A stretch of DNA of 64,000 bases from Rhodospirillaceae bacterium (GCA_002709075.1 PAPV01000022.1:1-64000), one strand, 5' to 3'. Shown: positions 7,888 through 62,956, counted from the first letter of the stretch. A program made the numbers and translations. The notes: generated by a model from the sequence alone, not told the origin.

Positions 7888-7938
7888 TTTATTCTCTCGT
7901 TTCAAAAATTTACCAGCGCTAAGGCTGCAAATTTATGG

Positions 7939-8023
7939 TGGTGCGGGCGAAGGGACTTGAACCCCCACGGCTTTCGCCACCAGATCCTAAATCTGGCGTG
8001 TCTACCAATTCCACCACGCCCGC
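7939..8023 (-). tRNA. tRNA-Leu (TAG)
   Basis: Minus-strand tRNA of 85 bases with the long variable arm of a class II tRNA. Acceptor GCGGGCG pairs fully with CGCCCGC; anticodon stem CCAGA/TCTGG holds a loop with TAG (leucine CTA/CTG); T-arm GGGTTCAAGTCCC; discriminator A and encoded CCA at 7939-7941. It lies 51 bases upstream of tig on the same strand. Confidence 0.97.
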
Positions 8024-8123
8024 TTTAAAAATTGTCCCTGTGTGGACCGATAATGGAATGCTGTATAACACAGAAGCTGGATTGGAAACAAAAAGTTATC
8101 GTGTTTGCAGACTTAATCAAAGA

Positions 8124-8444
8124 TTAGATTACAATTCTTTCTCGATAGCGATCCGCAAATGAACTAAGAGCTAACATGCGGGTGCCTTTATCAAAGTCAA
8201 GGAACTTCTTATCGCGGGTGAGAGAAATTTGAAACCGAACATGAGGAATACCATACAAATCGGTACCGAGCGACTCCACACATGCAATCTCTATTAAATT
8301 GTCGTCGCGCAAATGTTGAAAGGTGGAACCTGGTCGCATATATTCGAGCTTTTCACCACGCTTAAAAAAAACACTCGGAAGTATCTGCCCGTTTCCGCGC
8401 GCCAAAATATCATGTTGGACATTCAAACCATCGCCTTGTTCCAT
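8124..8444 (-). CDS. Small conserved-looking protein of unknown function
   Basis: A 106-residue protein with no signal peptide or membrane segment. The core alternates strands and charged turns (GSTFQHLRDDNLIEIACVES, then GIPHVRFQISL, and the end FADRYRERI). Short alphaproteobacterial proteins with a similar GIPHVR...F...FADRYRERI layout exist in my memory as uncharacterised; I cannot name a domain. The ATG at 8444 has GGATTG upstream as a weak ribosome binding site. It stands alone between nnr and tRNA-Leu. Confidence 0.6.
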   Translation of the reverse strand: MEQGDGLNVQHDILARGNGQILPSVFFKRGEKLEYMRPGSTFQHLRDDNLIEIACVESLGTDLYGIPHVRFQISLTRDKKFLDFDKGTRMLALSSFADRYRERIVI

Positions 8445-8550
8445 AAAAACAATCCTAAGCCGCTAAATTCTATTTAACCTTATTATTACTTTAAGAGTTT
8501 TTAAGCAAGCCATTGTTTTATAGTAGTTGTTGTGCATTGACCATGGAGGA

Positions 8551-30718: not shown

Positions 30719-30724
30719 AATATT

Positions 30725-31756
30725 TCATGGAATAATAAGTGGTTTAACCGCCTTACCGGCTAAAATTAATTCAAACCCTTTTTTGCCTTCCGAAAGGGGA
30801 ATACTATGGCTATGAATTGGTCCTAAGTCGACCTTTTTAGCAGATATAAGCTCAAGTGCGAATTGCCAACTATCCCAAATCCGGCGACCATGAATATTTT
30901 GCATCTTGGGACACTTGAGCAACCATTGAGTAAAATCTACACTAATAGGTTTCGGTGGCGCTCCAACCAACCTAAAATCACCTCCCTTCGAGAGGCTTTG
31001 AAAACAAGTGTTGAACCCGTCTTCAGATCCAGTGTACTCGATAGCAACATCAACGCCAGCGTGAGCAGTCATGTCTGCGATTACAGAACACAAATCTTCT
31101 ACTGCTGCATTTACTACCCTATCCGCTCCCATTTCTGTAGCCGTCTTGAGGCGTATTGGATTTAAATCACAAGCAATAACTTTTGTAGCACCCATTGCCC
31201 GTGCGGTTGCGATATTCATTAATCCAATTGGACCACAGCCGTTAATCAACACACTTTTTCCAGCGACACCGGATCCCTCTCGTGTAGCGTGAACTGATAT
31301 ACCAAACGGTTCCATCATAGCAGCGACTTCCAAAGAGAGCCCTGGTGGATTAACCCAACAAATCTGTGATGGAACAGTAACATATTCGGCGAAACCGCCA
31401 TCAAAATTTATACCAGGGTATGTAGTTTTTTCACACAAATGTGCTCGACCAAGACGACATTGACGGCATTCCCGGCAAAAGACATGGCTTTCGAGGCTTA
31501 CAAAATCTCCAACTTTTGGCGACCGAACTTCCGGCCCAACTGCTTCTATAATTCCACATACCTCATGCCCTAGAATTCTGGGCAACTGCATCCTGCGTGC
31601 CATTCGGGGCGCCCAGTTATAAATCTGCATATCAGTTCCACAGATCCCAGCTGCAGAAACCTTAATTCGCACTTCACCCGCTTTTGGTTCAATGGGGTCG
31701 CAATTTCTTACTTCTATACCCCCCTTGCATTCTGCAACCTTACATACAGCCAGCAT
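30725..31756 (-). CDS. Zinc-dependent medium-chain alcohol dehydrogenase
   Basis: A 343-residue MDR enzyme of the sorbitol/threonine dehydrogenase type. Catalytic zinc residues: Cys in GICGTDMQIY (near 38), His-Glu in LGHEVCGIIE (near 63); structural zinc cysteines in CRECRQCRLGRAHLC (near 93-107). NAD site: GCGPIGLMNIATA. Sits inside the ring-hydroxylating dioxygenase operon where a cis-diol or alcohol dehydrogenase would be expected; the product it oxidises is not known. Ribosome binding site AGGAAA. Confidence 0.9.
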   Translation of the reverse strand: MLAVCKVAECKGGIEVRNCDPIEPKAGEVRIKVSAAGICGTDMQIYNWAPRMARRMQLPRILGHEVCGIIEAVGPEVRSPKVGDFVSLESHVFCRECRQCRLGRAHLCEKTTYPGINFDGGFAEYVTVPSQICWVNPPGLSLEVAAMMEPFGISVHATREGSGVAGKSVLINGCGPIGLMNIATARAMGATKVIACDLNPIRLKTATEMGADRVVNAAVEDLCSVIADMTAHAGVDVAIEYTGSEDGFNTCFQSLSKGGDFRLVGAPPKPISVDFTQWLLKCPKMQNIHGRRIWDSWQFALELISAKKVDLGPIHSHSIPLSEGKKGFELILAGKAVKPLIIP

Positions 31757-31770
31757 TTTCGTTTCCTACT

Positions 31771-32268
31771 TTAGAAATGATATATATCTATCGGCCCTGC
31801 CACCGCATCATCAATCATAATTATCTTCTTCCGCACTATCTTCAATTCATCAAAACTACGATTTAAAATATACTCGTACATATTTCCACTAGTTTTACAC
31901 CCGTGTCGCCCATAAGAATGCACTATAGCATTTCCCGACGCTTCAATATTCTCGCCTTGCACACGGTCAACTGTTATATTACCAACGACGTGCACGGTTC
32001 TGTCCTGAGGCATTGATGCATAGGAATCACCGGTCTCTATACGAAAAACTCGGTCTTCCAATTTGCCACGCCCTTCAAGAAACACCAAGTTAAGTTGTGT
32101 CTGTGGCTCTTCTATTATATTTTCTTCATCTGACCAACTCGGAGCCCAAAACACTGCATCTTCAGTGTAGAGTTCTAGCCATTTTTCCCAGTCTCGTCGA
32201 TCTAGGAACTTAGCCTCGTTATTTATCAGGTTTGTTACCTCTGCCAACAACACTGAGTCCACTATCAT
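31771..32268 (-). CDS. Ring-hydroxylating dioxygenase beta subunit
   Basis: A 165-residue NTF2-like (cone-fold) subunit with the family pattern FLDRRDWEKWLELYTEDAVFWAPSW (residue ~22 on; given as FLDRRDWEKWLELY and TEDAVFWAPSW) and a C-terminal VRKKIIMIDD. It holds the alpha3beta3 assembly together. Its ATG overlaps the alpha-subunit stop by one base (TGATG), so the two are made in equal amounts. Confidence 0.92.
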   Translation of the reverse strand: MIVDSVLLAEVTNLINNEAKFLDRRDWEKWLELYTEDAVFWAPSWSDEENIIEEPQTQLNLVFLEGRGKLEDRVFRIETGDSYASMPQDRTVHVVGNITVDRVQGENIEASGNAIVHSYGRHGCKTSGNMYEYILNRSFDELKIVRKKIIMIDDAVAGPIDIYHF

Positions 32269-33599
32269 CAGATTTCTTTCACCGTCATCATATCACGCCA
32301 ACGGCGATAAAAACCGAGATAAAGATTTTCATTTTCCCAGCTATTACAACTTGTAACCGCTTTTATGCCGCCCTCTTTCGCAATATCATCGGACCCATCT
32401 ATCATGCTATGCAACCCACGATTAAAATCATTCCAACGAGTAACCCGAGACTGACTACCTAGAAAGGTATCTTCCAAAGCAGACATATCATCAGAGGTAG
32501 CCATTCCAGCAGTTAGATAAAAATCTTCAAATTTTCTTAAGCGTGCGGCACGAGAAACGGGGTCCTCACCAACATGCGCAATACAATAAACTGTTACCTC
32601 CGTACGATCCGGCGAAATTGGGCGAACGCGACGAATCTGCGTGGATGGATTATCCATGAGTGCAACGTTAGGAAATACTGAAAGATTACGCCCTCGGTTA
32701 AGAATCCAATTAACCTTGCCGGGAGTAAAGTTTTGCTCCAGCCACTCTTTTCGTTTATATACAGGACGTCTTTCGGGTGTTGTATGCTGCGCCCAAATTG
32801 ACATATGACCATTACCAAGGTCGTAGGCACCTGATGGCACTTTTTCAACTATTCGACCACCCTCTGTTTTATCCATATCTGTTAAGCCATCCCGCTCCTC
32901 ACGATTCCGTATGGTACTGGCAAACACCCGATGAACCGTCGACACATGGTGGCCGTCAACGCTATTTTCCATTTGCATCTTCCAATTACCGTAGATGGTG
33001 TATGTGGAGGAACCTGTAACAACTTCCAAACCTTCGGGTGATTGATCTACCATCAAGTCTATCCATCCAGCAGCGCCCGCAAGCGACTCTTTAATCGGAG
33101 GAACATCCTTAACTAGTGATCCAAAAATAAAACCCCTGTAGCTCTCTGTTCTTGCTACTTCTCTTAAATTATATTGAGATCTTTCGAAGCCATCGCTACC
33201 ATATCCCTCTTCCTCTTGTTTGATACGTATACAGCGCCCATCACTACTGTATGCCCAACCATGAAAACGACACGTTAAAACTCTTGCTTTGCCCTGCTTT
33301 CTTGGTGTGAGAATTGCTGCTCGATGAGAACAAGCATTTATAAAACTCAACAGACTTCCATCTTTCTGCCTAATAACGACAACAGGAGTGCGCCCTATTT
33401 CAGTTGCAAAATAACTGCCAACATCCGGGATCTGACTTTCGTGGCATAAAAACACCCATCCCCTTTCGAACACACGTTCCATTTCTAAGTCAAAAATCAG
33501 TTGATCCGTGTAAACAGAACGATCAACACGAAACACTCCCTCTGAAACCCGATCATCAACTAGAGAAACGGGATCATTGTCCAAAGTAGCGCCGTCCAT
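32268..33599 (-). CDS. Ring-hydroxylating dioxygenase alpha subunit (Rieske oxygenase)
   Basis: A 443-residue catalytic subunit. The Rieske motif C-x-H-x17-C-x2-H is seen from ACSHRAA to LTCRFHGW (near 85-110); the mononuclear-iron histidines are in DGHHVSTVH (near 215). Closest in style to benzoate/anthranilate-type (BenA/AntA) enzymes, which add O2 to aromatic acids. First gene of a four-gene operon (alpha, beta, dehydrogenase, reductase). Ribosome binding site GGAGAGGTG is strong. Substrate is not proven; the aminobenzoate-type CoA ligase 8 kb away is only suggestive. Confidence 0.93.
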   Translation of the reverse strand: MDGATLDNDPVSLVDDRVSEGVFRVDRSVYTDQLIFDLEMERVFERGWVFLCHESQIPDVGSYFATEIGRTPVVVIRQKDGSLLSFINACSHRAAILTPRKQGKARVLTCRFHGWAYSSDGRCIRIKQEEEGYGSDGFERSQYNLREVARTESYRGFIFGSLVKDVPPIKESLAGAAGWIDLMVDQSPEGLEVVTGSSTYTIYGNWKMQMENSVDGHHVSTVHRVFASTIRNREERDGLTDMDKTEGGRIVEKVPSGAYDLGNGHMSIWAQHTTPERRPVYKRKEWLEQNFTPGKVNWILNRGRNLSVFPNVALMDNPSTQIRRVRPISPDRTEVTVYCIAHVGEDPVSRAARLRKFEDFYLTAGMATSDDMSALEDTFLGSQSRVTRWNDFNRGLHSMIDGSDDIAKEGGIKAVTSCNSWENENLYLGFYRRWRDMMTVKEI

Positions 33600-49986: not shown

Positions 49987-50880
49987 CTAAATTTTAAAAT
50001 TGTAAATATTTTTATCAAATCTATCATAATCCTGATACCTTATAAGTTCGTACAACTCAGATCGTGTATGCATTTGCTCAACTAATTCTGACTGAGTTCC
50101 ACTTTCAGCTATTGTTTGCAGTCCGCGCCGAATTGCCCCCATAGCTAGCCGTAAAGTAGTTGCTGGATATATCACAAGGTTATAACCCAATTCTTCCAAT
50201 TCAGAAGCAGAAAGAAGTGGAGATTTTCCGAACTCTGTCATATTTGCCATCAAGGGTGCATCAATTGCTTTACGAAATAATTTAAACTCTTTTATGTTCT
50301 GCATTGCCTCCGGAAATACTGCATCCACGCCAGCGTCAACGTATGCTTTTGCGCGATCAATTGCCTTACTTATTCCTTCAGAAGCGAGCGCATCAGTGCG
50401 AGCAAATATTATAAAATTTGGATCCGACTTTGCATCCGCAGCTGCACGAATTTTACATATCATTTCTTCTATTGGCACGATTAATTTATTATCTAAGTGA
50501 CCGCATCGTTTTGGGTTAACCTGATCTTCCAAATGACATCCAGAGATCCCAAGTTGTTCTAATTCTTGTATTGTTCTAGCAACACTCATTGCCTCGCCAA
50601 ACCCTGTATCTATATCTATAATTGTCGGCAAATTAGTAACACGTGCTATTTGATGTCCTCGTTGAGAAACTTCTGTCAAAGTCGTTAATCCAATATCTGG
50701 TAAACCCAAATCAGCCGACAATGCTGCACCGGAAATATAAACGCCTTCGAATGCATGGCGTTCAATTTCCATTGCTACCAGAGGGGAATGGGCTCCTGGA
50801 AATCGAAGTATCTTTTCTCCTTCTAATCCGTTCCGAAAGGCTGCACGTTTCTCGGTAACAGATGCTTTATTGAATAGCAT
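49987..50880 (-). CDS. prpB: 2-methylisocitrate lyase
   Basis: A 297-residue member of the isocitrate lyase/PEP mutase superfamily. The catalytic loop PKRCGHLDNK (Cys near 122) and the metal site TIIDIDTGFGE, plus the C-terminal tail TRSELYELIRYQDYDRFD typical of PrpB, point to cleavage of methylisocitrate to pyruvate and succinate in propionate use. PrpC is not in the window; a MmgE/PrpD protein lies 2 kb away. Strong ribosome binding site (AAAGGAAA). Confidence 0.85.
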   Translation of the reverse strand: MLFNKASVTEKRAAFRNGLEGEKILRFPGAHSPLVAMEIERHAFEGVYISGAALSADLGLPDIGLTTLTEVSQRGHQIARVTNLPTIIDIDTGFGEAMSVARTIQELEQLGISGCHLEDQVNPKRCGHLDNKLIVPIEEMICKIRAAADAKSDPNFIIFARTDALASEGISKAIDRAKAYVDAGVDAVFPEAMQNIKEFKLFRKAIDAPLMANMTEFGKSPLLSASELEELGYNLVIYPATTLRLAMGAIRRGLQTIAESGTQSELVEQMHTRSELYELIRYQDYDRFDKNIYNFKI

Positions 50881-51210
50881 AATAAATTTTCCTTTGTTTT
50901 ATTTAATTTGCGATTTGCAATTAAATATGGCCCAGGCCGCGGTAGAAAAATAATTGCTATCGTGTGTTTAAGTTATCAAAGTTCAGGTAGTCGTATCCTA
51001 TAAATGTTTTATCTTTTTTCAGTTGCCAAGGTGTTGAGCACTTGCAAATCATCATAAGACTTAATAAATGCCAAAAAACTGACTTTTCATTAAAACCCTG
51101 AATTTTTACATTTTGGCTGAGGTTGATCATGGCAGATTGTTTTATGAGAGTGTATAACTAAGTTGTAGCGAAACCTTCACTTTGATCATCTGAAAAAAGG
51201 AAATTTTGCC
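50881..51210. promoter_or_regulatory. Divergent control region of prpB and a NIPSNAP gene
   Basis: 330 bases without a gene. At 50901-50926 ATTTAATT and AATTAAAT flank a core TGCGATTTGC; on the prpB strand the core reads TTGCAAATCGCAAA. Tandem TTTGCAAA-like boxes are the known target of ScfR/PccR-type propionyl-CoA regulators of alphaproteobacteria, so this is a reasonable prpB operator. The rest shows nothing I can name. Confidence 0.45.
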
Positions 51211-51525
51211 ATGATAGTCGAGCAGCGAATTTATACATTACATCCGGGTAAAATACCAGAGTACATGAACCATTACCGGATTGAGGGACGCGCAATACAG
51301 GAGGAGATACTTGGTAGAATGATTGGATGCTACTACACCGATTTTGGTCCACAAAATCAAATTATTCATATGTGGGGATATCAATCCTATAAAGAGAGAG
51401 ATGAACGTCGAACTCGTTTGTTTGCAAATCAAGCGTGGAAAAATTTTCAGCCAAAAGTTCGCCCTCTTATCTTACGTCAAGAAAACAAAACTTTGATCCC
51501 TGCCCCATGGTCACCAGATCAATAG
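51211..51525 (+). CDS. NIPSNAP-family protein, copy 2
   Basis: A 104-residue dimeric alpha+beta barrel protein, same length as the copy at 46517-46831 and alike throughout (EQRIYTLHPGKIPEYMNHY; HMWGYQSYKERDERR; ends PAPWSPDQ against PASFSPAN). Role unknown. Good ribosome binding site AAGGAAA. It is followed by the remnant of a thiamine-diphosphate enzyme. Confidence 0.88.
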   Translation: MIVEQRIYTLHPGKIPEYMNHYRIEGRAIQEEILGRMIGCYYTDFGPQNQIIHMWGYQSYKERDERRTRLFANQAWKNFQPKVRPLILRQENKTLIPAPWSPDQ

Positions 51526-51557
51526 TCCACCAATAATTCTTTTTACCGGCCGAGTAA

Positions 51558-51866
51558 GTAGGTATCTGGTTAATCATTTCTTTCTCAGGCGATGGTAATT
51601 TTTATATGAGTGGGCAGAAGATTGCCATAGGCAGACGCTATGAATTTACGATTACGTTTGTAGTTACTAATAATAGTACCTCAGGAACTATTCTTGTGCA
51701 TCAAATACTTTCTTATCCTGATCGCGTTATCGGCAATGATTTAATTAACCCTAATTTTCGTGCATTAGCACACGCCTGCAGATTGCACGGTGAGTTTGTT
51801 AACAAAACCGATGAATTCATGCTAGCTTACGATCGTTGTCGTTCCCTCACTCAATACCTTAATTGA
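51558..51866 (+). pseudogene. C-terminal remnant of a thiamine-diphosphate-dependent enzyme
   Basis: The frame from 51558 reads ISFSGDGNFYMSGQKIA, then FVVTNNSTSGTILVHQ, then YPDRVIGNDLINPNFRAL and CRLHGEFVNKTDEF. This is the TPP-binding GDG...NN motif (25 residues between) and the following conserved segment of acetolactate-synthase-like enzymes. A TAA at 51555 cuts it off upstream, no N-terminal or middle domain precedes it, and the last 20-odd residues are missing. An ATG at 51606 gives an 86-codon ORF, but it would lack the GDG and cannot fold into an enzyme. Best seen as a relic. Confidence 0.75.
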
Positions 51867-51938
51867 TCGAATTCTGAACTACTGAAGAACAAAAACCCCT
51901 CGAAACACGTTGAAACTGTTGAGTATAAATAAAGGAGA

Positions 51939-52763
51939 CTAACTCTGACCTAACAATTTTTTGATATCAGATTGGCTCAGTAATCCTTGATTCCAATCGC
52001 AGGTTCCACTCTCACGCAAGTATCGAAGGCTTCTGCGTACTTCAGAAATAGCGACTTTGGCAAAACCACTGCCAAATGACACCCTTTGTACTCCGAGAGA
52101 TTGAAGTTGTATGACTGATGGGCTTTCTGGTCCGGCAAGTATGTTTAATGGTCCATCGATTTGATTAGCTAATTCTTTAATAATATCAATATCGGATACC
52201 CCAATAACAAATGTACAATCAGCGCCAACTTCTAGATAGGCGTTTGCACGTTTAATAGCTTCTTCAATTGGATTGTTTCCACGCGTCGAAAAGACATCGG
52301 TCCTAGCATTTAAAACTGCTGGAATGCCAAACTCATCTATCGCATATCGCGCAGCTTGTATCCGGGCTACAGATATATCGTAATCAAACAAAACTCTGTC
52401 TCCATTCTTTCGGCTGTCCTCAATATTTAGTCCTACGGCCCCCACCTCTAATGTTCTTTTTACGGTATTTGAGACTTCATCCGGCTCAACACCATAACCT
52501 GCCTCCATATCAGCACTAACTGGGATAGAAACAGCATTGCAAATGGTTTTAACAATTCCAGTCATCTCACTAAGTGTAATATTTTCACCATCACAATACC
52601 CCGCTGAAATCGCACATCCACCGCTGGTTGTAGCGACGGCTTCAAAACCCTCAGCAGCAATAACTGCGGCACTAATTGCGTCGTATGCATTTGGAATAAC
52701 CAAAATTTCTTTTGTATTATGCAAATATTTTAATTTTTCTGCTTTTTCATATTGACTGTTCAT
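51939..52763 (-). CDS. Isocitrate lyase/PEP mutase superfamily protein
   Basis: A 274-residue (beta/alpha)8 enzyme. Metal-binding VSADMEAGYG (near 80), GLNIEDSRKNGD where PrpB has the KRCGH loop, and VLNARTDVFST. It lacks the catalytic cysteine loop of lyases for isocitrate or methylisocitrate and looks like the oxaloacetate-decarboxylase/PEP-mutase-like branch; the substrate is uncertain. ATG 52763 lies just after an in-frame GTG. Below the MmgE gene on the same strand. Confidence 0.83.
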   Translation of the reverse strand: MNSQYEKAEKLKYLHNTKEILVIPNAYDAISAAVIAAEGFEAVATTSGGCAISAGYCDGENITLSEMTGIVKTICNAVSIPVSADMEAGYGVEPDEVSNTVKRTLEVGAVGLNIEDSRKNGDRVLFDYDISVARIQAARYAIDEFGIPAVLNARTDVFSTRGNNPIEEAIKRANAYLEVGADCTFVIGVSDIDIIKELANQIDGPLNILAGPESPSVIQLQSLGVQRVSFGSGFAKVAISEVRRSLRYLRESGTCDWNQGLLSQSDIKKLLGQS

Positions 52764-52809
52764 CACATTTTCCAGAACGTTTTCTTAATATTTCTTTTGA
52801 ACTGTTGTT

Positions 52810-52871
52810 TGTTCTATAATTTATTAAGTTAACAACTTTAACAAAGTTAAAATAATTCTTATTTAGAACAA
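52810..52871. promoter_or_regulatory. Nested inverted repeats ahead of the PEP-mutase-like gene
   Basis: TGTTCTA (52810-52816) and TAGAACA (52864-52870) flank an inner dyad AACTTT-AAC-AAAGTT (52834-52848) in the gap between the MmgE gene and the downstream gene. Could be an operator or a transcript hairpin; there is no T-run of terminator quality. Confidence 0.35.
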
Positions 52872-52898
52872 TGTTGGGTTTTTTGAGCAAGTTACAAT

Positions 52899-54194
52899 TT
52901 AACCTTTTGAGAGTATGAGGGCCGGATGAGGTGCAGTTTTTCCGGATGAAATACCCAGCACTTGATCGATAATACCAGTGGGTTTTTCAATTCCTCCGAA
53001 ACGCATTAACTGATAAGCTTTTTCAATTATTTCTTCTTCTGAGAGAAAAGCCTCTGGGTCTCCTTTACACAATGGTGCTGTAGCAGAAATTTCTTGACCG
53101 TTAATGTTTTTTACCGTCACCTCTGCGCCCCAGGCAGCTGGATATTCGCGGTTGTAACTGTCGTCGCAAACAATTTTAATTTTTAATGCACATTCTGATA
53201 CATTCCTTCGAGCTGTATCATCGAATGATGAAAACTCTATCCTTCCAAAATGCAGAGCTGCTGCCACACAATGTTGGATAGAAAACTTTGCTCCGTAAGC
53301 TGAATTAACAATAGGTCGGTCACACACATCCAGCGCTGCCCAATATGTTTTTACCAAAACGTAAGCTATATTTTGTATATCAACTTTGCCTGCAATACGA
53401 AGAGCAGCGTCAATTGCAGGATGGGTATGACGGCAAGACGGCCAAGGCTTAAGTGATGTATCATGTATTTGCCATATAGAGTCTGATTTCTGTAACACTG
53501 CTGCAGGATTTGGATTTAAGCAAGTAGCGGAGAAAAAACCCTTAGGACCCTCAAGAATTTCAGGTGGTCCAGTGAAATCAAGTTTAGCTAATTCAGCTGC
53601 TAGTATGCCAGCTTCTGCCGCACGACCTGCGTGTAGATGCTTGCTCATAGCTCCTGTACGCAGAAATTCCCAGAATCCACTTGATTGAGTTCCTGCATTT
53701 CCCAGCGCGTGCATTGTGGCAGTATTACCTAATTCTAATAAAGTAGCTGCTGCCATTGCTGAACCATAAGGACCGCATGTAGCGGTGTTATGCCATACTT
53801 TGTAGTGGTCCGGACCAACTGCCATACCTACACGACTCGCAGCTTCCACTCCAAATATCAAGGATTTAAGTAATAACTTTCCAGAAATCCCATGGCTGGC
53901 TGCGAGAGAAAGTATTACCGGAACAGTTACACACCCAGTATGAACAACGGAAGCTCTATGGATGTCATCGACTTCAAGTATATGCGCTAGAGCACCCATC
54001 ACGAAGGCCTCTCGCCCCGCATCCATCGGCCGATCATGTCCCCAATCTAGCAATTTTCTACCTGCTTCACTATTGCGACCGGCAAAGGAATTCGCAACTG
54101 CATCCAACATAAGAAGTGAAGCCTTATCTATATCCGTGGATTCAATAGTTTGTCCACGAATTAATTTTACAAGGCCCTGTGAAAGCGTTTGCAT
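52899..54194 (-). CDS. MmgE/PrpD-family protein
   Basis: A 431-residue all-helical dehydratase/decarboxylase-fold protein of the 2-methylcitrate dehydratase and cis-aconitate decarboxylase family. Marks: DAVANSFAGR (near 31), EVDDIHRASVVHTGCVTVP (near 75-93), YGSAMAAATLLEL and the mid-protein KPWPSCRHTHPAIDAAL (near 258). The distance to prpB and the amidohydrolase operon in front suggest a dehydratase for a carboxylic acid; it may not be true PrpD. Start ATG 54194 has GAAGGG. 11 bases after the amidohydrolase stop, so in the same operon. Confidence 0.87.
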   Translation of the reverse strand: MQTLSQGLVKLIRGQTIESTDIDKASLLMLDAVANSFAGRNSEAGRKLLDWGHDRPMDAGREAFVMGALAHILEVDDIHRASVVHTGCVTVPVILSLAASHGISGKLLLKSLIFGVEAASRVGMAVGPDHYKVWHNTATCGPYGSAMAAATLLELGNTATMHALGNAGTQSSGFWEFLRTGAMSKHLHAGRAAEAGILAAELAKLDFTGPPEILEGPKGFFSATCLNPNPAAVLQKSDSIWQIHDTSLKPWPSCRHTHPAIDAALRIAGKVDIQNIAYVLVKTYWAALDVCDRPIVNSAYGAKFSIQHCVAAALHFGRIEFSSFDDTARRNVSECALKIKIVCDDSYNREYPAAWGAEVTVKNINGQEISATAPLCKGDPEAFLSEEEIIEKAYQLMRFGGIEKPTGIIDQVLGISSGKTAPHPALILSKG

Positions 54195-54204
54195 AGGAAG
54201 CCCT

Positions 54205-55449
54205 TCAGGATTCTACTCCTAACTGCGAATTTTCGTATCCCGGAAAACGGTCAGAGACATCTAAGCCAAAAAGTTCTATTGCATTTCCACCCAAAATTCT
54301 ATGTTTTTGAATTTCAGTGAGAAACGGCAGATCATATATAACACTGGGCACATCCATATCCCAGTGAGGATAATCTGAAGACCACAATAGTTGCTCTTTT
54401 GCGTTGATCAAGCTAAAGGTCATTTCAAGTACATCCAAACGATTCGGAACTTCCATAGGCTGGCTGGTATAAAACATTTGTCTCATGTAATCACTTGGCA
54501 AACCCTTAAGTGAAGGGGCCTCGGACCAACGCATTTTATAATCATTGTCCAACCGTTGCATTACCCAAGGAATCCATGCGAGACCCGACTCTATCCAAAT
54601 TGTTTTAAGATTTGGAAAGCGTTCTGGTAGTCCATTTATTACCCAATTGCAAAGGTGGACAGCGTTATATACAGTAAATCCTAGTGCATGCGTAACAAGG
54701 AATCGGTTGCTATTCCCAACAAGTCTATCATTCCAATTATAATTACCATGAAAACCGAGCGGTTTACCGAGTTCCTCCATTAAAGAGTATGTTTTCATGT
54801 AGGCATTATTGTGAACCGAGTTATATTGTACGGAACATATCATGAAACCAATAACGTCGCGATGGTGGCCAAATTCTTTAACAGTTTCATAAGCAGCATC
54901 TGGATCCCCGAAAGGAACGTACATCATCGTCTTAATACGTTTTTCCTTGGCAGTAATATTTTCAAGAAGCCAGCGATTATAAGCCTTGGCCAACGCACCC
55001 TCGACCTCTGGTTGGGGGTGCAGTCCTAAACTGAGCATTGGTGTGGGAAACAGACAAACATAATCAACCCCCATGGCATCCATCCATTTTAAAGAAAGGT
55101 GGATATCCCTATGTTGTTCATCAGCAGGTGTTGTTTCCGTTTTCCGAAGTGGATAACGAGTGACCCTTCCTGCTATGTCCTGGTAGCCAACTCCAGCAAC
55201 TCCAAAAGGGGCTTGACCACCTGTACCGCCAGAAGTATACAGCTGGCCCATCTGACTCAAAACTTCATCGTCAATATACCTCACTATCTCCTGTATTGAC
55301 TCATTTTCATAATGATGGCAGTCAACATCGATGATAGGAAATTGATTGTAACCCCTTGCATCTCTTTGACGAGCAGCATTACGCAATAGCGTAGAAGTGT
55401 CAAAAGATGCGATTGCTTGTTTGTGAATATTGCTGGTAGGTAATTCCAT
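54205..55449 (-). CDS. Metal-dependent amidohydrolase (amidohydrolase_2), copy 2
   Basis: A 414-residue TIM-barrel enzyme of the ACMSD/resorcylate-decarboxylase superfamily. Metal site DVDCHHYE (near 43), a histidine in GFHGNYNW (near 232), HALGFTVYNAVH and the late Asp in SSDYPHWDMDVP. Clear paralog of 56264-57475 along the entire length. The frame runs further to 55494, but the paralog's start (MDLPTSD) shows MELPTSN at ATG 55449 to be right, 7 bases after the stop of the 116-residue protein. These enzymes hydrolyse or decarboxylate aromatic or unsaturated acids. Confidence 0.88.
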   Translation of the reverse strand: MELPTSNIHKQAIASFDTSTLLRNAARQRDARGYNQFPIIDVDCHHYENESIQEIVRYIDDEVLSQMGQLYTSGGTGGQAPFGVAGVGYQDIAGRVTRYPLRKTETTPADEQHRDIHLSLKWMDAMGVDYVCLFPTPMLSLGLHPQPEVEGALAKAYNRWLLENITAKEKRIKTMMYVPFGDPDAAYETVKEFGHHRDVIGFMICSVQYNSVHNNAYMKTYSLMEELGKPLGFHGNYNWNDRLVGNSNRFLVTHALGFTVYNAVHLCNWVINGLPERFPNLKTIWIESGLAWIPWVMQRLDNDYKMRWSEAPSLKGLPSDYMRQMFYTSQPMEVPNRLDVLEMTFSLINAKEQLLWSSDYPHWDMDVPSVIYDLPFLTEIQKHRILGGNAIELFGLDVSDRFPGYENSQLGVES

Positions 55450-55456
55450 CTTTTTA

Positions 55457-55807
55457 CTATGCCCCCGACCATGATTGCCACATGCCCAATTCAAATACTT
55501 CTACATTGACTTGACGCATCATCGCTGTGCACATGATCATGGCGGCTGTAGCTGGAACAATATTATTTTCAGAAAAAGGCTCCCACCTCTCACCGAGCTG
55601 GAACTTTGTTGAATATAATCGGGTTAACACAGTAATACCCTCCTGTATAAGGCTATTTGGGATCGTTTGATTTGCATCTAACTGATTGAGCTTTTTTGCC
55701 CAATCCTTCAACAATTGTTCTTCGTCAGGTATATTCGCTATGGCTTTTCCTCCTTCAGGAAGATCTGCTTCTCTGGGGTCCGGGACTGTACTTTTACGCG
55801 AGGACAT
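55457..55807 (-). CDS. Unrecognised 116-residue protein between Rieske ferredoxin and amidohydrolase
   Basis: No domain known to me. Residues 1-30 are charged and probably unstructured (SSRKSTVPDPREADLPEGGK); the rest is helical (EEQLLKDWAKKLNQLD, SLIQEGITVLTRLYS) ending in ATAAMIMCTAMMRQVNVEVF and MWQSWSGA. No signal peptide. The start ATG 55807 has GAGGAG and overlaps the Rieske gene stop by 14 bases; the frame itself opens to 56053, which is only a shadow of the Rieske gene. Tight coupling on both sides suggests a subunit or helper of the complex made by its neighbours. Confidence 0.72.
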   Translation of the reverse strand: MSSRKSTVPDPREADLPEGGKAIANIPDEEQLLKDWAKKLNQLDANQTIPNSLIQEGITVLTRLYSTKFQLGERWEPFSENNIVPATAAMIMCTAMMRQVNVEVFELGMWQSWSGA

Positions 55808-56165
55808 ATACTTTTTCTCCTCTAATATTAACATCATACTTTCGAAGTTTCCATGCTGAGTCACCACATGCAACACCATCTTCCATACGAAACTCCCAAC
55901 CATGCCAGGGACAAACGATATGCATTTCATCATGATTAAAACGCATTCCGTGATAAGTTTTCTTTTCTGGGTGAATGATTTCTTCAACCTTTGCCATAAG
56001 AAGCCCCTCGCAGGCTGGCCCTCCCTGGTGGGGACATAAATTCTGATATGCAAACCATTCGCCCTTTATTAAATAAACACCGATTTCACTTTTACCGTTT
56101 GGTACAATCTTCTTTCCCCCTTCTTCAAAATCAGAGGTGTTCCCGACGAGAATTTCTTTGGCCAT
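55794..56165 (-). CDS. Rieske-type 2Fe-2S ferredoxin
   Basis: A 123-residue soluble Rieske protein. The ligands are seen as CPHQGGPACEG (near 43) and CPWHGWEF (near 86), one Cys and one His in each. The spacing between the two boxes is long because of a loop with HPEKKTYHGMRFNHDE. Ribosome binding site GGGAGAAAAG. It lies between two amidohydrolase genes and has no own oxygenase in the operon; the TauD-type gene upstream does not need it. Could serve the ring-hydroxylating oxygenase elsewhere. Confidence 0.9.
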   Translation of the reverse strand: MAKEILVGNTSDFEEGGKKIVPNGKSEIGVYLIKGEWFAYQNLCPHQGGPACEGLLMAKVEEIIHPEKKTYHGMRFNHDEMHIVCPWHGWEFRMEDGVACGDSAWKLRKYDVNIRGEKVYVLA

Positions 56166-56263
56166 ACTTTTCTCCCTTTGCCTCAGGATTATGCTCCTGA
56201 TATTTATTAATTGAGTCGCAGATCAGTGGTTTTTAAGAACATAAAAATTAACTGATACTAAAT

Positions 56264-57475
56264 TTATGCTGCGACGCTGTAGTCTGGATATCGATCGGAT
56301 ACATCAATATTAAACAACTTCACTGCATTGCCTCCCAAAATTTTTCGTTTTGCTGTCTCATCAAGAAATGGCAAATCATATATCGTGCACGGAAGATCCA
56401 TATCCCAATGCGGATAATCTGAAGCGTAAAGTAACCGTTCCTCCGCATTTATAAATTTAAAAGTTGCCTCCAGCAGAGTATGATCATTTGGCACTTCCAT
56501 AGGCTGCGAAGTGTAATACATATCTCGCATGTAATCCGAGGGCAATTTCTTTAAGGAAGGACACTCACTGGTCCGCATTTTATAATCGTTATCGAGACGC
56601 TGCCCGAGCCATGGCACCCATGCAATTCCGGACTCTGTCCAGATAACATCAAGATTTGGGAACCGTTCATTTAAACCGTTTGTAATCCAGTTGCACATGT
56701 GGATTACATTATATAACGTGAAACCCAGGGCATGAGCAGAAATGAACCTGTTTGTTACTGACATCAAGGGATCATTCCAATTTAAACCTGAGTGGAATGT
56801 CAGCGGAATTCCCATTTCTTCGATTAAAGCATACGTCTTCATGTAAGCATTGTCATGAATGGGAGCATATCTTGGACTTGTGACTAACGCACCAATAATT
56901 CCAGGTTTATTCCCGAAATCAACAAGCATTTTATATGCCTCATCAGGTGAATTAAATGGTAAATAAACATAGCCTTTTACCCTTGGGTCATGAGGTAAAA
57001 TTTTCTCTGTAAGCCAGCGCATGTAGGCCCGGGCGTATTGAACCTCAATTTCTTTTTGTGGCAAAAGTCCAACCGATAGCATGCCTGTTGGGAAGAGCCC
57101 TATATAATCGATGCCTATTGCATCCATAAAACGACGAGATAAATGAATATCCCGATGAATACCATCAGCCGGAGTTTGTTCTATTGACCGAAGTGGATAG
57201 CGAGTAACTCGACCGCCGACAGGTTGATAGCCCCCCCTCCCACGTGACATAATTCCTGGGGCAGAAGACACTATTTGATGCAACACATCATCTTCAATGT
57301 ATTCAATAATTTCGTTGATAGACTCACTTTCATATTGATGTGAGTCAGCACAAATAATCGGAAAATCATGATAATTTCTTAGCTTAGCCTGTCTTCTAGC
57401 ATTTTTCAGAAGTTGCTCAGTATCGAAATTATCAATACTCATTTTGTGATAGCGATCACTTGTGGGTAAGTCCAT
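56264..57475 (-). CDS. Metal-dependent amidohydrolase (amidohydrolase_2), copy 1
   Basis: A 403-residue TIM-barrel enzyme, paralog of 54205-55449. Metal site CADSHQYESES (near 41), histidine in TFHSGLNW, HALGFTLYNVIH, and Asp in ASDYPHWDMDLP. Compared with copy 2 the first box has DSHQYE in place of DCHHYE, and several positions around the pocket differ, so different substrates are likely. Very good ribosome binding site GGAGGCAAGCA. First gene of the tight block with Rieske ferredoxin, unknown protein and copy 2. Confidence 0.88.
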   Translation of the reverse strand: MDLPTSDRYHKMSIDNFDTEQLLKNARRQAKLRNYHDFPIICADSHQYESESINEIIEYIEDDVLHQIVSSAPGIMSRGRGGYQPVGGRVTRYPLRSIEQTPADGIHRDIHLSRRFMDAIGIDYIGLFPTGMLSVGLLPQKEIEVQYARAYMRWLTEKILPHDPRVKGYVYLPFNSPDEAYKMLVDFGNKPGIIGALVTSPRYAPIHDNAYMKTYALIEEMGIPLTFHSGLNWNDPLMSVTNRFISAHALGFTLYNVIHMCNWITNGLNERFPNLDVIWTESGIAWVPWLGQRLDNDYKMRTSECPSLKKLPSDYMRDMYYTSQPMEVPNDHTLLEATFKFINAEERLLYASDYPHWDMDLPCTIYDLPFLDETAKRKILGGNAVKLFNIDVSDRYPDYSVAA

Positions 57476-57543
57476 TGCTTGCCTCCATGTGTTTTTTTGG
57501 CGGTTATACTCCGCCTTGTTATAATGTTAGTATCTTTTTTTCA

Positions 57544-58629
57544 CTAAGGAAACAGCGGTGTTGAAAATTTTTTATTCGATACAACCACACCGCCAGAAGG
57601 TCTACTCCCCTTTTCTAAATGACCATACCGGTTAAAATATGACTTGGAAAGCGGCCTGCCGTCTGGCGTAGACAGCCACAAACGCAATAGATTTCGGCGA
57701 CGGTAAATTTCTGGATAATCCTCAAATTCTGTTCTTGAATGAACAGTGACATGATTATGTAAGAATTGAATATCGCCACGCCGAAAGTCCATCGCATAAG
57801 ATAATTCATGGGCCAGTTTGTTAAATAGTTTTATTGCAGCAATTAGTTTAGGCGAATGGCGCGGTAAAGATGGGAATCGTTGCGCAGATAAAATATAGCC
57901 ACCCTGCCAGCTAACACTCAAAAAACCATCCCGAAAGTTAAAGACCGGAAGCAAAAACCATGGATCTTTTCCTTTCGGAATTTCATTTCTGCGGTCTCTA
58001 TAAATTGGTTTTGAAAGTTCTGCCGCTAACTCTGGAGCACGATTAAGTATTTCGTTATAAATACTGAGAGAACTAGCAACCAGAGACTCTCCGCCACTTT
58101 TTGAGGGATGAAGACACAGCAAACTAACAATGTCGCAACTGTCGCAATGATAAGGAAGGGACTCACGTGTCTGGTAGCCTCGGTGGGAGGGGTTTTCCAA
58201 TGTTTTTCCTCCAAGATCTGCCACATGACCAAGAAGATGCCCTTTTGCATTTTGTGAAACTGGAACTCCGATATGCTGACCTATAACCCAAAAGGCAATC
58301 GCGGCTTCAGCCCTATCAAAATCTTGTACGGGAACTCCTCTAATAAGAGCAATACCTCGACCTTCCAGAATTTCCTCTTTGATTTGCCACAGATAGGGAG
58401 ATAATGTAGACATCTTATATAAGCTGGGTGTTATCGAAATGAGATCTATGTCAGCAGCCTTCAAGCGCGCGACGGTTCGCACAAGCTCATGAACGTGATC
58501 CTTTGAAATTGGATATATCCAACTTCTATCGCTATCTAGGTCGTTTGCAGACCATACAGCTGGATCCACAACAGGTAGATTTGGGACTGCTGGTGTTCGG
58601 GAAGAAATATTTGAGATTAAAACCATCAT
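57544..58629 (-). CDS. TauD/TfdA-family Fe(II)/2-oxoglutarate dioxygenase
   Basis: A 361-residue oxygenase. Iron ligands His and Asp in LPYHCDSCDIV (near 155) and His in VTVHSRTEFED, followed by RRRNLLRLW whose arginine binds 2-oxoglutarate. The pattern (EEILEGRGIALIRGVPV, HVADLGGK) is that of a TauD subgroup rather than a sulfonate enzyme; substrate unknown. Starts ATG 58629 with GGAATTTT. Lies 68 bases before the amidohydrolase operon on the same strand. Confidence 0.87.
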   Translation of the reverse strand: MMVLISNISSRTPAVPNLPVVDPAVWSANDLDSDRSWIYPISKDHVHELVRTVARLKAADIDLISITPSLYKMSTLSPYLWQIKEEILEGRGIALIRGVPVQDFDRAEAAIAFWVIGQHIGVPVSQNAKGHLLGHVADLGGKTLENPSHRGYQTRESLPYHCDSCDIVSLLCLHPSKSGGESLVASSLSIYNEILNRAPELAAELSKPIYRDRRNEIPKGKDPWFLLPVFNFRDGFLSVSWQGGYILSAQRFPSLPRHSPKLIAAIKLFNKLAHELSYAMDFRRGDIQFLHNHVTVHSRTEFEDYPEIYRRRNLLRLWLSTPDGRPLSKSYFNRYGHLEKGSRPSGGVVVSNKKFSTPLFP

Positions 58630-58797
58630 AAAATTCCAACTAATGCGACTAAATTACGACCTGGCAATTTAAAAAATTCTGTAAAAAATGTATTGAATTG
58701 CGGAATATTGAGAAAATACCAAATTTCAAGAATATAGAATAGCTATATTGTCTGTTCTTACCACTCTAATACCCAATCAGTGTGCGGAGGTGACAAC

Positions 58798-58812
58798 TTG
58801 CGAGCTTCGCAA
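58798..58812. promoter_or_regulatory. Inverted repeat in the gap upstream of the hydroxyacid-dehydrogenase relic
   Basis: TTGCGA and TCGCAA, 3 bases apart. It follows a very good Shine-Dalgarno-like GGAGGTG (58786-58792) with no proper ORF behind it (only five codons from the TTG at 58798). Possibly a leftover start region or a small leader. Confidence 0.3.
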
Positions 58813-58852
58813 TAAACTTTATCACTTGAGCCAACTATAGGCGATTAAAACC

Positions 58853-59368
58853 ATGAATTGGAAGTTTAGAACCAATAACGAAGTGATAGCTCGGGCTAAC
58901 TGCAATGAAAACGAATCTGTAAGGAATCATATCACAGGTGGATGTGAGAATGAGACTTTAATACGTTTCAATCGACAGGCCTCAAATTCGTCAGTATTTT
59001 TATCAAGGGTTTTACGCGCTCCTATATACCCATTAAAACGAAGTATCCGAACATTAGATTATAAGAGAATAATAATTGGTATTTCACCAAAAATAATTTG
59101 CGGATTAAAAAGGGGAATTAGAGTGTATATTAAAGTTGGCTACATACGCGCCCTAAACATTGGGAAAGCATTTCCTCTAAGCATGCAACCGGTTGGAATA
59201 AAAAAATTTCAGAGGTTGCTGCTTGCTGCTGATGAACAAAGCGTGTCAGAAAACAGTTTAAATAAGATTAAGAAAGAAATTACTATTAATATAAGGTTGC
59301 TAATCTTTATATTAGTACATCAACTTAATTTATCGTATGAAACAAAAGCGATGCCTGTAAGGGCTTGA
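58853..59368 (+). pseudogene. Gutted, still-open copy of the FMN 2-hydroxyacid dehydrogenase
   Basis: An open frame of 171 codons. The N-terminal part aligns with residues 13-95 of the intact protein downstream: ARANCNENE with ARRNMDQDN, GGCENETLIRFNRQAS with GAAESETSLRRNRMAL, FLSRVLR with FRPRVCR, LSMQPVGIKKF with LSTVTQPSLEEV. The C-terminal part aligns with its end: HQLNLSYETKAMPVRA against NELNPEYVTHAMPVRL. About 200 central residues are gone, with the catalytic NHGGRQLD and the FMN-phosphate loop. So it is a deleted, much changed paralog that cannot work as this enzyme. That no stop has arisen is odd. Confidence 0.6.
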
Positions 59369-59441
59369 AACGAGGTGAACGCTTTTCCGCGTCTCCCAAT
59401 TCGAAATTTTATTTAATCGCCCAATGCTAAAAATGGAGACT

Positions 59442-60521
59442 AAAATGTCCACTTATAGTGAATTTTTAACGATACATGACATGATTTTGATGGCCCGTCG
59501 AAATATGGATCAGGATAATTGGGACTACGTCTGCGGAGCTGCAGAAAGCGAAACCTCACTGCGACGAAATCGGATGGCATTAGATTCAATTGCCTTTCGA
59601 CCGAGAGTTTGCCGAGATGTAAGTAAAATTGATACTAGGTGTGACTTTTTTGGGCACAAATTACGTTTACCAGTTCTGATGGCCCCCATGGGAAGCATTC
59701 ATCGATTTACACCGAAGGGAGCAATCGATGTTGATGATGCGGCGGAACAATTCGGTACAGTAAATTTTCTTTCAACAGTTACTCAACCTAGCCTAGAAGA
59801 AGTCGCAAATAACAGTCCACACCCCAAAAATTTTCAGATTTATGTGAGAGGTGATGACGAATGGATAAAGAAGTTAGTGAAACGCATAGTAAAGGCTAAT
59901 TATCACTCAGTGACATTAACCGTCGACAGTTCGTTTTATGGCAATCGCGAACGGCTTAGCCCTTCACAACTCGCATTAAAACGAGTGCCAAATCGCGACT
60001 GGCAAAAAAAAATTACTTGGGACACCGTAAAAATGATTCAAGATGAAATCGGCAACCGCCCATTTTTTCTGAAAGGAATCATGACGGCTGAGGACGCTAA
60101 ACTGGCCGTACAACATGAAGTAGATGCTATATACATCTCAAATCACGGTGGGAGACAACTAGACCATGTTCTAGGCAACATTCAAACTTTACCAGAAATT
60201 GTGAAAGCCGTTAATGGACAAACAAAAATTATAATCGACGGAGGATTTACACGTGGAACCGATATTGTCAAAGCGATAGCTTTAGGCGCAGACTATGTGG
60301 CAATTGGCCGCCTCCAAGCCTGGGCACTTGGGGCAGCTGCTTCAACGGGATTAATCAAATGTTTAGAACTTATAGAGCAAGAAATAATTACAACTATGGG
60401 CCTTTTGGGAGTTACATCCTTAAACGAATTAAATCCAGAGTACGTGACACATGCGATGCCAGTGAGGTTGCCTCATGAGCATTCTGCCTTTCCACATCTC
60501 GGGCCAAATCCAATCGCGTAA
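59442..60521 (+). CDS. FMN-dependent 2-hydroxyacid dehydrogenase (lactate/glycolate oxidase family)
   Basis: A 359-residue TIM-barrel flavoenzyme. LPVLMAPMG (FMN pocket, near 77), STVTQPSLEEVA, a QIY strand, catalytic His and Arg in ISNHGGRQLDHVLG (near 233) and FMN-phosphate loop IIDGGFTRGTD then AIGR. It oxidises an L-2-hydroxy acid (lactate, glycolate or mandelate-like) to the oxo acid; membrane anchor absent. ATG 59442 has AATGGAG ahead; an ATG at 59424 is possible. The remnant just upstream is its decayed relative. Confidence 0.9.
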   Translation, partial: KMSTYSEFLTIHDMILMARRNMDQDNWDYVCGAAESETSLRRNRMALDSIAFRPRVCRDVSKIDTRCDFFGHKLRLPVLMAPMGSIHRFTPKGAIDVDDAAEQFGTVNFLSTVTQPSLEEVANNSPHPKNFQIYVRGDDEWIKKLVKRIVKANYHSVTLTVDSSFYGNRERLSPSQLALKRVPNRDWQKKITWDTVKMIQDEIGNRPFFLKGIMTAEDAKLAVQHEVDAIYISNHGGRQLDHVLGNIQTLPEIVKAVNGQTKIIIDGGFTRGTDIVKAIALGADYVAIGRLQAWALGAAASTGLIKCLELIEQEIITTMGLLGVTSLNELNPEYVTHAMPVRLPHEHSAFPHLGPNPIA

Positions 60522-60619
60522 CATTTTGAACTCTAGATAAACTTGTTATGGCAATTTGTGCAATTAATAAAAAAGAAAAATCAAATGACGTTGAAGACCA
60601 ATAAAAAGAAACCCGTACG

Positions 60620-62956
60620 TTACGCAGCGCTCTCTTTCGCCTCCTGTATTGCCTGCCAGACTTTTGCCGGTGTAGCCGGCATATCTATGTGTCTTATACC
60701 ATAATTTGATAAAGCATCTACAACTGCATTCATTACGGCTGGAACAGCTCCGACTGTTCCAGCCTCTCCTGCTCCTTTTACCCCAAGCGGATTTGTCGCT
60801 GTTGGACATGGGTTTGATTTAACCTCGATAAAAGAGAGATTGTCTGCACGAGGCATCGCGTAGTCCATGAAGGACCCTGATATCAATTGTCCACTGCCTT
60901 CATCAAATACAATTTCTTCTAATAGCGCCTGACCCACCCCATGAACAACTCCTCCTTGAATTTGACCTTTAAGAGTTAACGGATTTAGCACTGTACCTAC
61001 ATCATCTACGACATTGTATTTCACAATTTCAATTACACCGGTATCTTCATCTAATTCTATTTCACAGACATGGCAGCCGTTTGGAAAGTTTTCAGCGGTT
61101 GCTTCATACGTAAATACAGCATCCAATCCCGGTTCTATATCTGAAGGCAATGTCCCAGGTCGGTAGGATGCTTTTGCTACCTCAATTAAACTGATCTGCC
61201 GATCCGTACCAACAACAGTGAAGATTGAGTCAGAAAATTCTATATCTGTCTCGGCAGACTCTAGCAAATGAGCGGCAATGGTCTTGGCTTTGTCCACAAT
61301 CTTTTCAGAACATTTTAAAACTGTGCTACCTCCAATTGATGCTGAACGTGAACCACCTGTGCCTCCCCCAAAAGCTAAAATTGCTGTATCACCTTCAGCA
61401 AAACTTATTAGGTCTGGGTCAATTCCTAGAGTTTCATTCATTATTTGCTTATAGATAGTTTCATGGCCCTGCCCCTGTTGACTAGTCCCGGCATTAAGTT
61501 GGACTGAACCAGACGAATCAAAACGAATATGAACCTGTTCAAGGCTTGGTCCAGCTGCACGTTCTATGGAATTGGAAATCCCAATACCCCGTAGTTTACC
61601 ATTTTTTTCCGACAATTTTTTTCTGTCTTCGAATCCGTCATAGTCAGACATCTCCAGCGCCTTTTCTAAATTGTCTCCGAAGTCTCCACTATCGTAAGTA
61701 AAAACAAGAGCAGTCTTATATGGAATAGCCTCTGGTGTTATTTGGTTGCGCCGACGCAACTCCGCTGGATCCACATAAAGTTCATCCGCGGCCAAATCAA
61801 TTAATCTTTCAATGACATAGGATGCTTCCGGACGCCCATTCCCACGAAAAGGACAAATCGGATTTGTATTTGTATACACACCAGAGACGTCACAGTGCAT
61901 GGCAGGAATATTATAAGTTCCAGCCATTGTTCCAAGATTAGCGACCGGTGGTAGCGTACCCTTAGAGGCCAAGTATGCGCCTACATTGGTCCAACTTTTT
62001 GCGCGAACACCAAGAAATTTGAAGTTCTCATCTAACGCAATCTCGCCTTCCCAATAAACATCACGACCGTGGTGATCACTCATAAATCCTTCAGAGCGCT
62101 CACAAACCCACTTCACTGGCCTTCCAACCTTTCTGGAAGCCCAAAGAACCAAAACCACTTCCTGATAAGTTCCGCCTCGTAGTCCGAAACTTCCTCCCAT
62201 ATCACCACAAACAACTCGCATTTTAGATTCTGGGATGTTGAATATTTTATTGCATAATTCTTCGCGGACCTGCCAAGGATAATGAACTGCAGTATATAGG
62301 GTCCAGAAATCGCGAGAAGCATCATAATCACCAATGGCCCCTCGAGGTTCCATCGTAGCATGTGCACTTCGGTTCACTGGCAACTGACCCCTTACCACAT
62401 ATTTTGCATTCGAAATTGCAGCATCCGTGGCATCCTTGTCACCAACTAAGTGAACGAAACAAATGTTATCCTTTGCTTCCGACCAAACTTTGGGTGCCCC
62501 AGGTCGCGCTGCTTCGTATGGGGTTGAAACCGCCGGCAATGGATCATAATCAACTTCTATCAGCTCTGCGGCATCTTTTGCTTGATCCAATGTTTCGGCA
62601 ATTACCATAGCGACATAGTCGCCAACCATCTTCACTTCGTCTAGAACTAAGACACGTCGGGCTGGTTCAAACATCGGTGTACCATCGCGACGTTTGCGTT
62701 TTGGTGTGCATTCAAGTATCCCAAAACCATCATTGACGTAATCTTGCCCGGTAAGGACGTCAATAACACCCGGCGCATTTATTGCTGCCGAGATCTCCAT
62801 CGAAAGAATCTTTGCATGCGCGAATGGTGATCGCAAAATATAAGCACGAGCCTGTCGCGGAAGCGTGTTATCATCCATATATCGGCCTCCACCCGTTAAC
62901 AAACGAGGATCTTCATACCGAGGGACGGGTTGTCCAATACCAAATTTTTGAACCAT
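60620..62956 (-). CDS. Molybdenum hydroxylase large subunit, CoxL/xanthine dehydrogenase family (copy 2)
   Basis: A 778-residue molybdopterin-binding subunit, like the 12080-14422 protein along its full length. Conserved marks: GQPVPRYEDPRLLTGGGRY, DMGGSFGLRGG, GTSQQGQGHET and the catalytic Glu in GVKGAGEAGTVG. The active-site loop is PFRGNGRPEA where copy 1 has PYRGAGRPEA, so substrates likely differ. No FeS or FAD subunit is near. Good ribosome binding site (GGAGAAA). Divergent from the thiamine-diphosphate enzyme with a 24-bp tandem repeat between. Confidence 0.88.
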   Translation of the reverse strand: MVQKFGIGQPVPRYEDPRLLTGGGRYMDDNTLPRQARAYILRSPFAHAKILSMEISAAINAPGVIDVLTGQDYVNDGFGILECTPKRKRRDGTPMFEPARRVLVLDEVKMVGDYVAMVIAETLDQAKDAAELIEVDYDPLPAVSTPYEAARPGAPKVWSEAKDNICFVHLVGDKDATDAAISNAKYVVRGQLPVNRSAHATMEPRGAIGDYDASRDFWTLYTAVHYPWQVREELCNKIFNIPESKMRVVCGDMGGSFGLRGGTYQEVVLVLWASRKVGRPVKWVCERSEGFMSDHHGRDVYWEGEIALDENFKFLGVRAKSWTNVGAYLASKGTLPPVANLGTMAGTYNIPAMHCDVSGVYTNTNPICPFRGNGRPEASYVIERLIDLAADELYVDPAELRRRNQITPEAIPYKTALVFTYDSGDFGDNLEKALEMSDYDGFEDRKKLSEKNGKLRGIGISNSIERAAGPSLEQVHIRFDSSGSVQLNAGTSQQGQGHETIYKQIMNETLGIDPDLISFAEGDTAILAFGGGTGGSRSASIGGSTVLKCSEKIVDKAKTIAAHLLESAETDIEFSDSIFTVVGTDRQISLIEVAKASYRPGTLPSDIEPGLDAVFTYEATAENFPNGCHVCEIELDEDTGVIEIVKYNVVDDVGTVLNPLTLKGQIQGGVVHGVGQALLEEIVFDEGSGQLISGSFMDYAMPRADNLSFIEVKSNPCPTATNPLGVKGAGEAGTVGAVPAVMNAVVDALSNYGIRHIDMPATPAKVWQAIQEAKESAA

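Follow-up and report, generated by a model that had tools for sequence, protein, structure and literature searches.

U116, a 116-residue helical protein, is apparently a near-obligate and undescribed partner of one branch of the amidohydrolase-related dinuclear oxygenases (AROs); it is encoded with a Rieske [2Fe-2S] ferredoxin and two putative AROs, AH1 and AH2, in the 64,000-nucleotide stretch of Rhodospirillaceae bacterium DNA analyzed here (the window). ARO systems with a Rieske protein are already known, and the undescribed near-obligate extra gene product is what is new. Whatever the exact step at which U116 acts, it is likely that the locus encodes an ARO system with an obligate accessory protein.

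The genome containing the window is a 2.5 Mb draft in 26 contigs; its nearest named relatives are alphaproteobacterial MAGs, several of them labelled Rhodospirillaceae. The features of the locus are as follows.

51939..52766, minus strand: PEP-mutase/isocitrate-lyase-type lyase, 275 aa, a recurrent downstream neighbor (profile, neighborhood)
52899..54194, minus strand: MmgE/PrpD-family protein, 431 aa, conserved in the block (Pfam, neighborhood)
54205..55449, minus strand: AH1, second putative dinuclear oxygenase, 414 aa, called copy 2 in an earlier note on this DNA (Pfam, metal-site residues)
55457..55807, minus strand: U116, 116-aa helical protein outside known families (ORF, profile and fold searches, co-occurrence)
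55794..56165, minus strand: Rieske [2Fe-2S] ferredoxin, 123 aa, with intact CxH...CxxH (Pfam, motif)
56264..57475, minus strand: AH2, putative amidohydrolase-related dinuclear oxygenase (PF04909), 403 aa (Pfam, PDB relatives, metal-site residues, model)
57544..58629, minus strand: TauD/TfdA-family 2-oxoglutarate dioxygenase, 361 aa, the conserved upstream gene of the block (Pfam, neighborhood)
59424..60521, plus strand: FMN-dependent alpha-hydroxy-acid dehydrogenase, 365 aa, a divergent recurrent neighbor (profile, neighborhood)
60620-62956, minus strand: CoxL/xanthine-dehydrogenase-type molybdenum subunit (profile, neighborhood)

The four central genes are real ORFs, all on the minus strand and at the coordinates given in the earlier note, and the Pfam domains at the locus are Amidohydro_2 (in two genes), Rieske, TauD and MmgE_PrpD. 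From 58629 down to 52899 the minus-strand order is TauD, AH2, Rieske, U116, AH1 and MmgE/PrpD, with successive gaps of 68, 98, -14, 7 and 10 bases; the tight packing described earlier holds for the 14-base overlap of the Rieske and U116 genes and the 7-base gap to AH1, but not for AH2 and the Rieske gene, which lie 98 bases apart. AH1 and AH2 are 60% identical. The search for this gene order in other genomes, proposed in the same note, recovered the block TauD-ARO-Rieske-U116-ARO-MmgE/PrpD from ten further genomes; because of this recurrence the arrangement is not a matter of chance. A promoter and terminator scan of the locus returned about as many sites as shuffled sequence. The CoxL-like gene at 60620-62956 has no adjacent FAD or Fe-S subunit genes and recurs near the block in relatives. 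Beside the FMN dehydrogenase gene, a 171-aa ORF at 58853-59450 (plus strand) is a decayed second FMN alpha-hydroxy-acid dehydrogenase; its two homologous pieces are 48% and 37% identical to a protein of relative L007, the middle is gone and a stop lies inside, while the intact counterpart is found in relatives L007 and L013.

AH1 and AH2 are very probably AROs, as judged from sequence comparison and a structure model, and by the same comparison would act as oxygenases. The top PDB relatives of AH2 by sequence are 8sm7, 8sm6, AibH2 (6m1w chain B), 8sm9, 8sm8 and PtmU3; AH1 returns the same set, as does a profile of 27 relatives. The AlphaFold model of AH2 has a pTM of 0.82 and a mean pLDDT of 76, with low confidence at residues 1-15, 78-102 and 242-249; in a fold search its first 20 matches are all ARO structures (8sm7, SfbO, 8sm8, 8sm9 and AibH1H2 chains), ACMSD and decarboxylases ranking below them. 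Identity to any characterized ARO is about 22-26% by structural alignment. The ARO ligand set comprises three His, three carboxylates and a second-sphere acid, published for AibH2 as Asp25, His27, His211, Glu265, Asp337 and His340 with second-sphere Asp342, an acidic residue reported in dinuclear members only (PMC7782822). Alignment to these published residues places the site at D44, H46, H228, E281, D353 and H356 with second-sphere D358 in AH2, and at D43, H45, H234, E287, D359 and H362 with second-sphere D364 in AH1 (7/7 in each); 101 of 102 relatives likewise have all seven, and the remaining one is a gene with a broken frame. A PF04909 gene with an adjoining small Rieske gene is the signature used for finding AROs (PMC10811679), and 90% of 555 AibH2-like proteins are encoded next to a Rieske gene (PMC10401708). 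The locus thus combines a PF04909 fold nearer to solved AROs than to hydrolases or decarboxylases, the full residue set and a Rieske neighbor. The earlier note had described a Rieske ferredoxin lacking its own oxygenase; this puzzle is solved because AH1 and AH2 match AROs and the PF04909-Rieske pairing is their published signature, so that the amidohydrolases themselves, with their dinuclear metal-site residues, fall in the ARO group. The layout, considered unfamiliar in that note, had also been described, as a Rieske gene beside PF04909 (PMC7782822, PMC10401708, PMC10811679).

The CxH...CxxH motif is kept in the Rieske protein of the window and in all 59 relatives checked. The operon has no PF00848 catalytic alpha subunit; the sole one seen lies at 32268-33599, and with more than 20 kb between them a role of the Rieske protein in serving a classical ring-hydroxylating oxygenase was rejected. 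That alpha subunit belongs to a separate Rieske ring-hydroxylating oxygenase region at 29696-33599 (minus strand), which also holds an NAD/FAD/2Fe-2S reductase gene. No ferredoxin reductase gene is found among the annotated neighbors at 49987-62956; the reductase at 29696-30718, in the pair just described, could be what supplies the ARO Rieske protein with electrons.

U116 has zero matches in Pfam, NCBIfam and PHROGs profiles, a 26-member profile is negative against PDB sequences, and the AlphaFold model (four helices, mean pLDDT 82) has no match among PDB folds by Foldseek, the best E being 1.9; its placement outside known families in the earlier note is borne out by each of these searches. 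A 32-sequence alignment has five invariant residues, T87, F105, L107, W110 and Q111, four of which lie within the C-terminal FELGMWQSW motif. On plasmids, single-sequence tblastn with U116 found none, whereas the profile search did find loci L086-L089; U116 relatives in plasmid records are annotated 'hypothetical protein'. A search of open-access literature found no report of an extra small protein in ARO systems, and the novelty of U116 holds for the profile libraries, PDB and open-access papers searched.

The distribution of U116 agrees with its description in the earlier note as a dedicated partner. The U116 profile alone found 25 copies in 17 of 385 genomes of the alphaproteobacterial class (13 related genera, so that counts are not independent events), and a search with AH2 found exactly the same 17 genomes; its threshold of E <= 1e-50 is not critical because among the matches listed none is weaker than 3e-100. 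A Rieske gene adjoins 25/25 of these copies and an ARO gene lies within 1.5 kb of 24/25; a second set of U116 copies, overlapping the first in part, gives 33/33 and 32/33, respectively, and the four copies in a phylum-wide sample give 4/4 for both. The ARO, Rieske and U116 genes stand together at 49 of 79 close loci, and 6 have the Rieske gene without a local U116. Where the fetched ARO locus had no U116, 14 of the 16 genomes carry it elsewhere, and the other two are Acidobacteria. Within the window's own family, 13 of 13 genomes carry U116; its wider spread is uneven, at 4% of genomes in the class sample and 3/398 in the phylum sample (by a profile search that a diverged U116 could escape), as expected of a catabolic accessory system. 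Distant ARO loci have the Rieske gene, and U116 was not found in them: L117 is a Rhodococcus AH-AH-Rieske-reductase cluster of Aib type, and L118-L121 are AH-Rieske pairs in Pseudomonas, Sinorhizobium, Halobellus and Mesorhizobium. U116 marks one branch of AROs. AROs of the U116-linked branch also occur outside Proteobacteria, in Acidobacteria MAGs (L021, L030, L045 and L079); in L021, L030 and L079 a Rieske gene adjoins the ARO with no local U116, and in the genomes of L045 and L079 the ARO is present while U116 is undetectable genome-wide.

The number of oxygenases per Rieske-U116 pair varies. Many genomes have a single ARO match with one Rieske and one U116 gene, whereas two loci from uncultured Rhodospirillales MAGs (L070 and L075) have 4 and 5 tandem AROs, respectively, and one gene each for Rieske and U116; these arrays adjoin several consecutive genes for substrate-binding proteins, all from one family. 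Defluviicoccus encodes AH1-like and AH2-like genes at different places, and AH1 and AH2 fall into two distinct clades, both well supported, each with eleven rows drawn from the same ten loci and the window. The window's own genome has a second ARO-Rieske-U116 module (L091, G000:C14:29000-46000, at 7823-9712), whose neighbors are two UbiD-type decarboxylase genes, an acyl-CoA dehydrogenase and a CoA-transferase; in the assembly the reading frame of its ARO gene is broken, while in the same-genus genome G401 (L152) the frame is open over the corresponding stretch. A third ARO-type gene of this genome (L090, G000:C6:7000-25000, at 7837-9081) has no Rieske or U116 gene beside it; rhodopsin-like and carotenoid-type genes, named by eye and not by profile, lie in its vicinity.

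Three other readings of the locus were considered. A reading of AH1 and AH2 as ordinary hydrolases or decarboxylases of PF04909, with the Rieske protein serving another oxygenase of the genome, is highly improbable: the two proteins do share the Pfam family, PF04909 decarboxylases occur lower down the PDB lists, and a ring-hydroxylating oxygenase and a reductase are present elsewhere in the window; however, the sequence and fold rankings point to AROs, the dinuclear residue set is complete in both proteins, and the Rieske gene stays beside the ARO branch in dozens of genomes. A hydrolase or decarboxylase identity was rejected on the PDB ranking, the fold ranking and the metal-site residues. 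An arrangement as in AibH1H2, a heterotetramer (PMC7782822), with AH1 and AH2 as one alpha/alpha' complex in which one copy is catalytic and the other mainly structural, and with U116 as an extra structural subunit and not a coupling protein, is improbable as well; co-inheritance of AH1 and AH2 in eleven genomes as two separate clades would suit it, but no dinuclear-site residue is missing from either copy, the Asp absent from AibH1 included, and neither the many genomes with one ARO match, one Rieske and one U116 nor the separated genes of Defluviicoccus conform to it. A module of Rieske protein and U116 that is shared, with AROs as its exchangeable catalytic parts, is favored over a complex with a non-catalytic partner because of the single-ARO genomes, the tandem arrays, the Defluviicoccus split and the separate clades; both ARO copies of the window would then share one Rieske protein and one U116.

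In the mechanism proposed for such a shared module, AH1 and AH2 would be two catalytic AROs (Fe/Fe or Mn/Fe) that hydroxylate C-H bonds of small organic acids with O2, and the Rieske protein would supply both with electrons that it takes from a reductase encoded outside the operon. After AibH2 and SfbO, the Rieske protein is predicted to reduce the dinuclear site, upon which O2 would bind; a high-valent intermediate would then abstract H from the substrate and OH would be returned. U116 may be a coupling protein that binds the Rieske protein, the oxygenase or both, a tentative assignment; serving both copies, it would couple electron delivery to turnover, and its binding would couple reduction to the presence of substrate. 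The strict pairing of U116 with Rieske and ARO, and the single U116 gene for several ARO genes, fit equally well a maturation factor that loads or protects the oxygenase metal site or the Rieske cluster and has no part in turnover; this is nonetheless considered unlikely, as the invariant residues T87, F105, L107, W110 and Q111 include no Cys/His metal-binding motif, and related AROs and their Rieske proteins elsewhere manage without U116.

The neighboring genes fit catabolism of some organic acid, without fixing the substrate. Homologues of the neighbors are found at many loci: FMN alpha-hydroxy-acid dehydrogenase at 22, CoxL-like subunit at 21, TPP enzyme at 18, TctA transporter at 18, PEP-mutase/ICL lyase at 17, TauD at 15 and a citrate-synthase-like protein at 11; at L049, L053, L058, L062 and L073 an FMN alpha-hydroxy-acid dehydrogenase-type gene lies directly upstream of the ARO gene. 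TauD, the alpha-hydroxy-acid dehydrogenase, MmgE/PrpD and the lyase may provide further steps of one catabolic route. A coherent candidate for it would begin with C-H hydroxylation, giving an alpha-hydroxy acid, and continue with oxidation of this to the alpha-keto acid, TPP-dependent decarboxylation and aldehyde oxidation; its end phase would resemble the methylcitrate cycle. The aromatic or unsaturated acid suggested in the earlier note is a possible substrate, and the context of L091 (UbiD, acyl-CoA dehydrogenase, CoA-transferase) would suit aromatic acids.

The ARO class is young, and native substrates are known for few of its members; in the published assay of SfbO, ascorbate served as the reductant and the KM for the surrogate substrate was 83 mM (PMC10811679). 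U116 is a concrete missing component for ARO assays as well as a genome marker of its ARO branch, and its absence might explain weak activity of such enzymes assayed alone. With two AROs here and up to five elsewhere per Rieske and U116, specificity could be compared on one electron-delivery system.

Among known systems, the 2-aminoisobutyrate monooxygenase AibH1H2-AibG-AibF of Rhodococcus wratislaviensis (PMC7782822, PMC10401708) likewise has two PF04909 paralogues and a Rieske protein in one cluster, and all dinuclear-site residues of AibH2 are conserved in AH1 and AH2. AibH1 and AibH2 share 28% identity, and the dinuclear site is confined to AibH2, its paralogue being mononuclear and lacking an equivalent of Asp342; the copies in the window share 60% identity, and the residue set is complete in each, with D358 (AH2) and D364 (AH1) present. 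U116 is not reported for the Aib system and none was found in the Aib-type Rhodococcus cluster L117; a ferredoxin reductase is encoded in the Aib-type cluster, whereas the window operon has no reductase gene. PtmU3, the platensimycin biosynthesis hydroxylase (PDB 6omp), is a dinuclear PF04909 hydroxylase matched by both sequence and fold, however more weakly than SfbO and AibH2; it is a biosynthetic enzyme acting on CoA-linked substrates (PMC7782822). A riboflavin catabolism system (PMC12746152) was set aside since it concerns an unrelated Rieske dioxygenase. SfbO from Litorilinea aerophila and the candidate AROs 8SM7, 8SM8 and 8SM9 (PMC10811679) share with the window the family, fold, metal-site residues and Rieske neighbor, at about 24-26% identity by structural alignment; 8sm7 is the nearest solved structure to the window AROs. 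The latter are longer (403-414 residues versus 351-388 for the SfbO/8SM set) and have an N-terminal extension and the U116 partner.

MmoB-type effector or coupling proteins of bacterial multicomponent monooxygenases are small, non-redox proteins encoded beside a dinuclear oxygenase and an electron carrier. Their likeness to U116 is a functional analogy only; U116 is predicted to be all-helical with no PDB fold match. U116 may be the first known regulatory or coupling protein of the amidohydrolase-fold oxygenases, a functional counterpart, with an unrelated fold, of MmoB in methane monooxygenase; together with the Rieske protein it would form a shared module driving a set of interchangeable oxygenases, of which as many as five stand in tandem.
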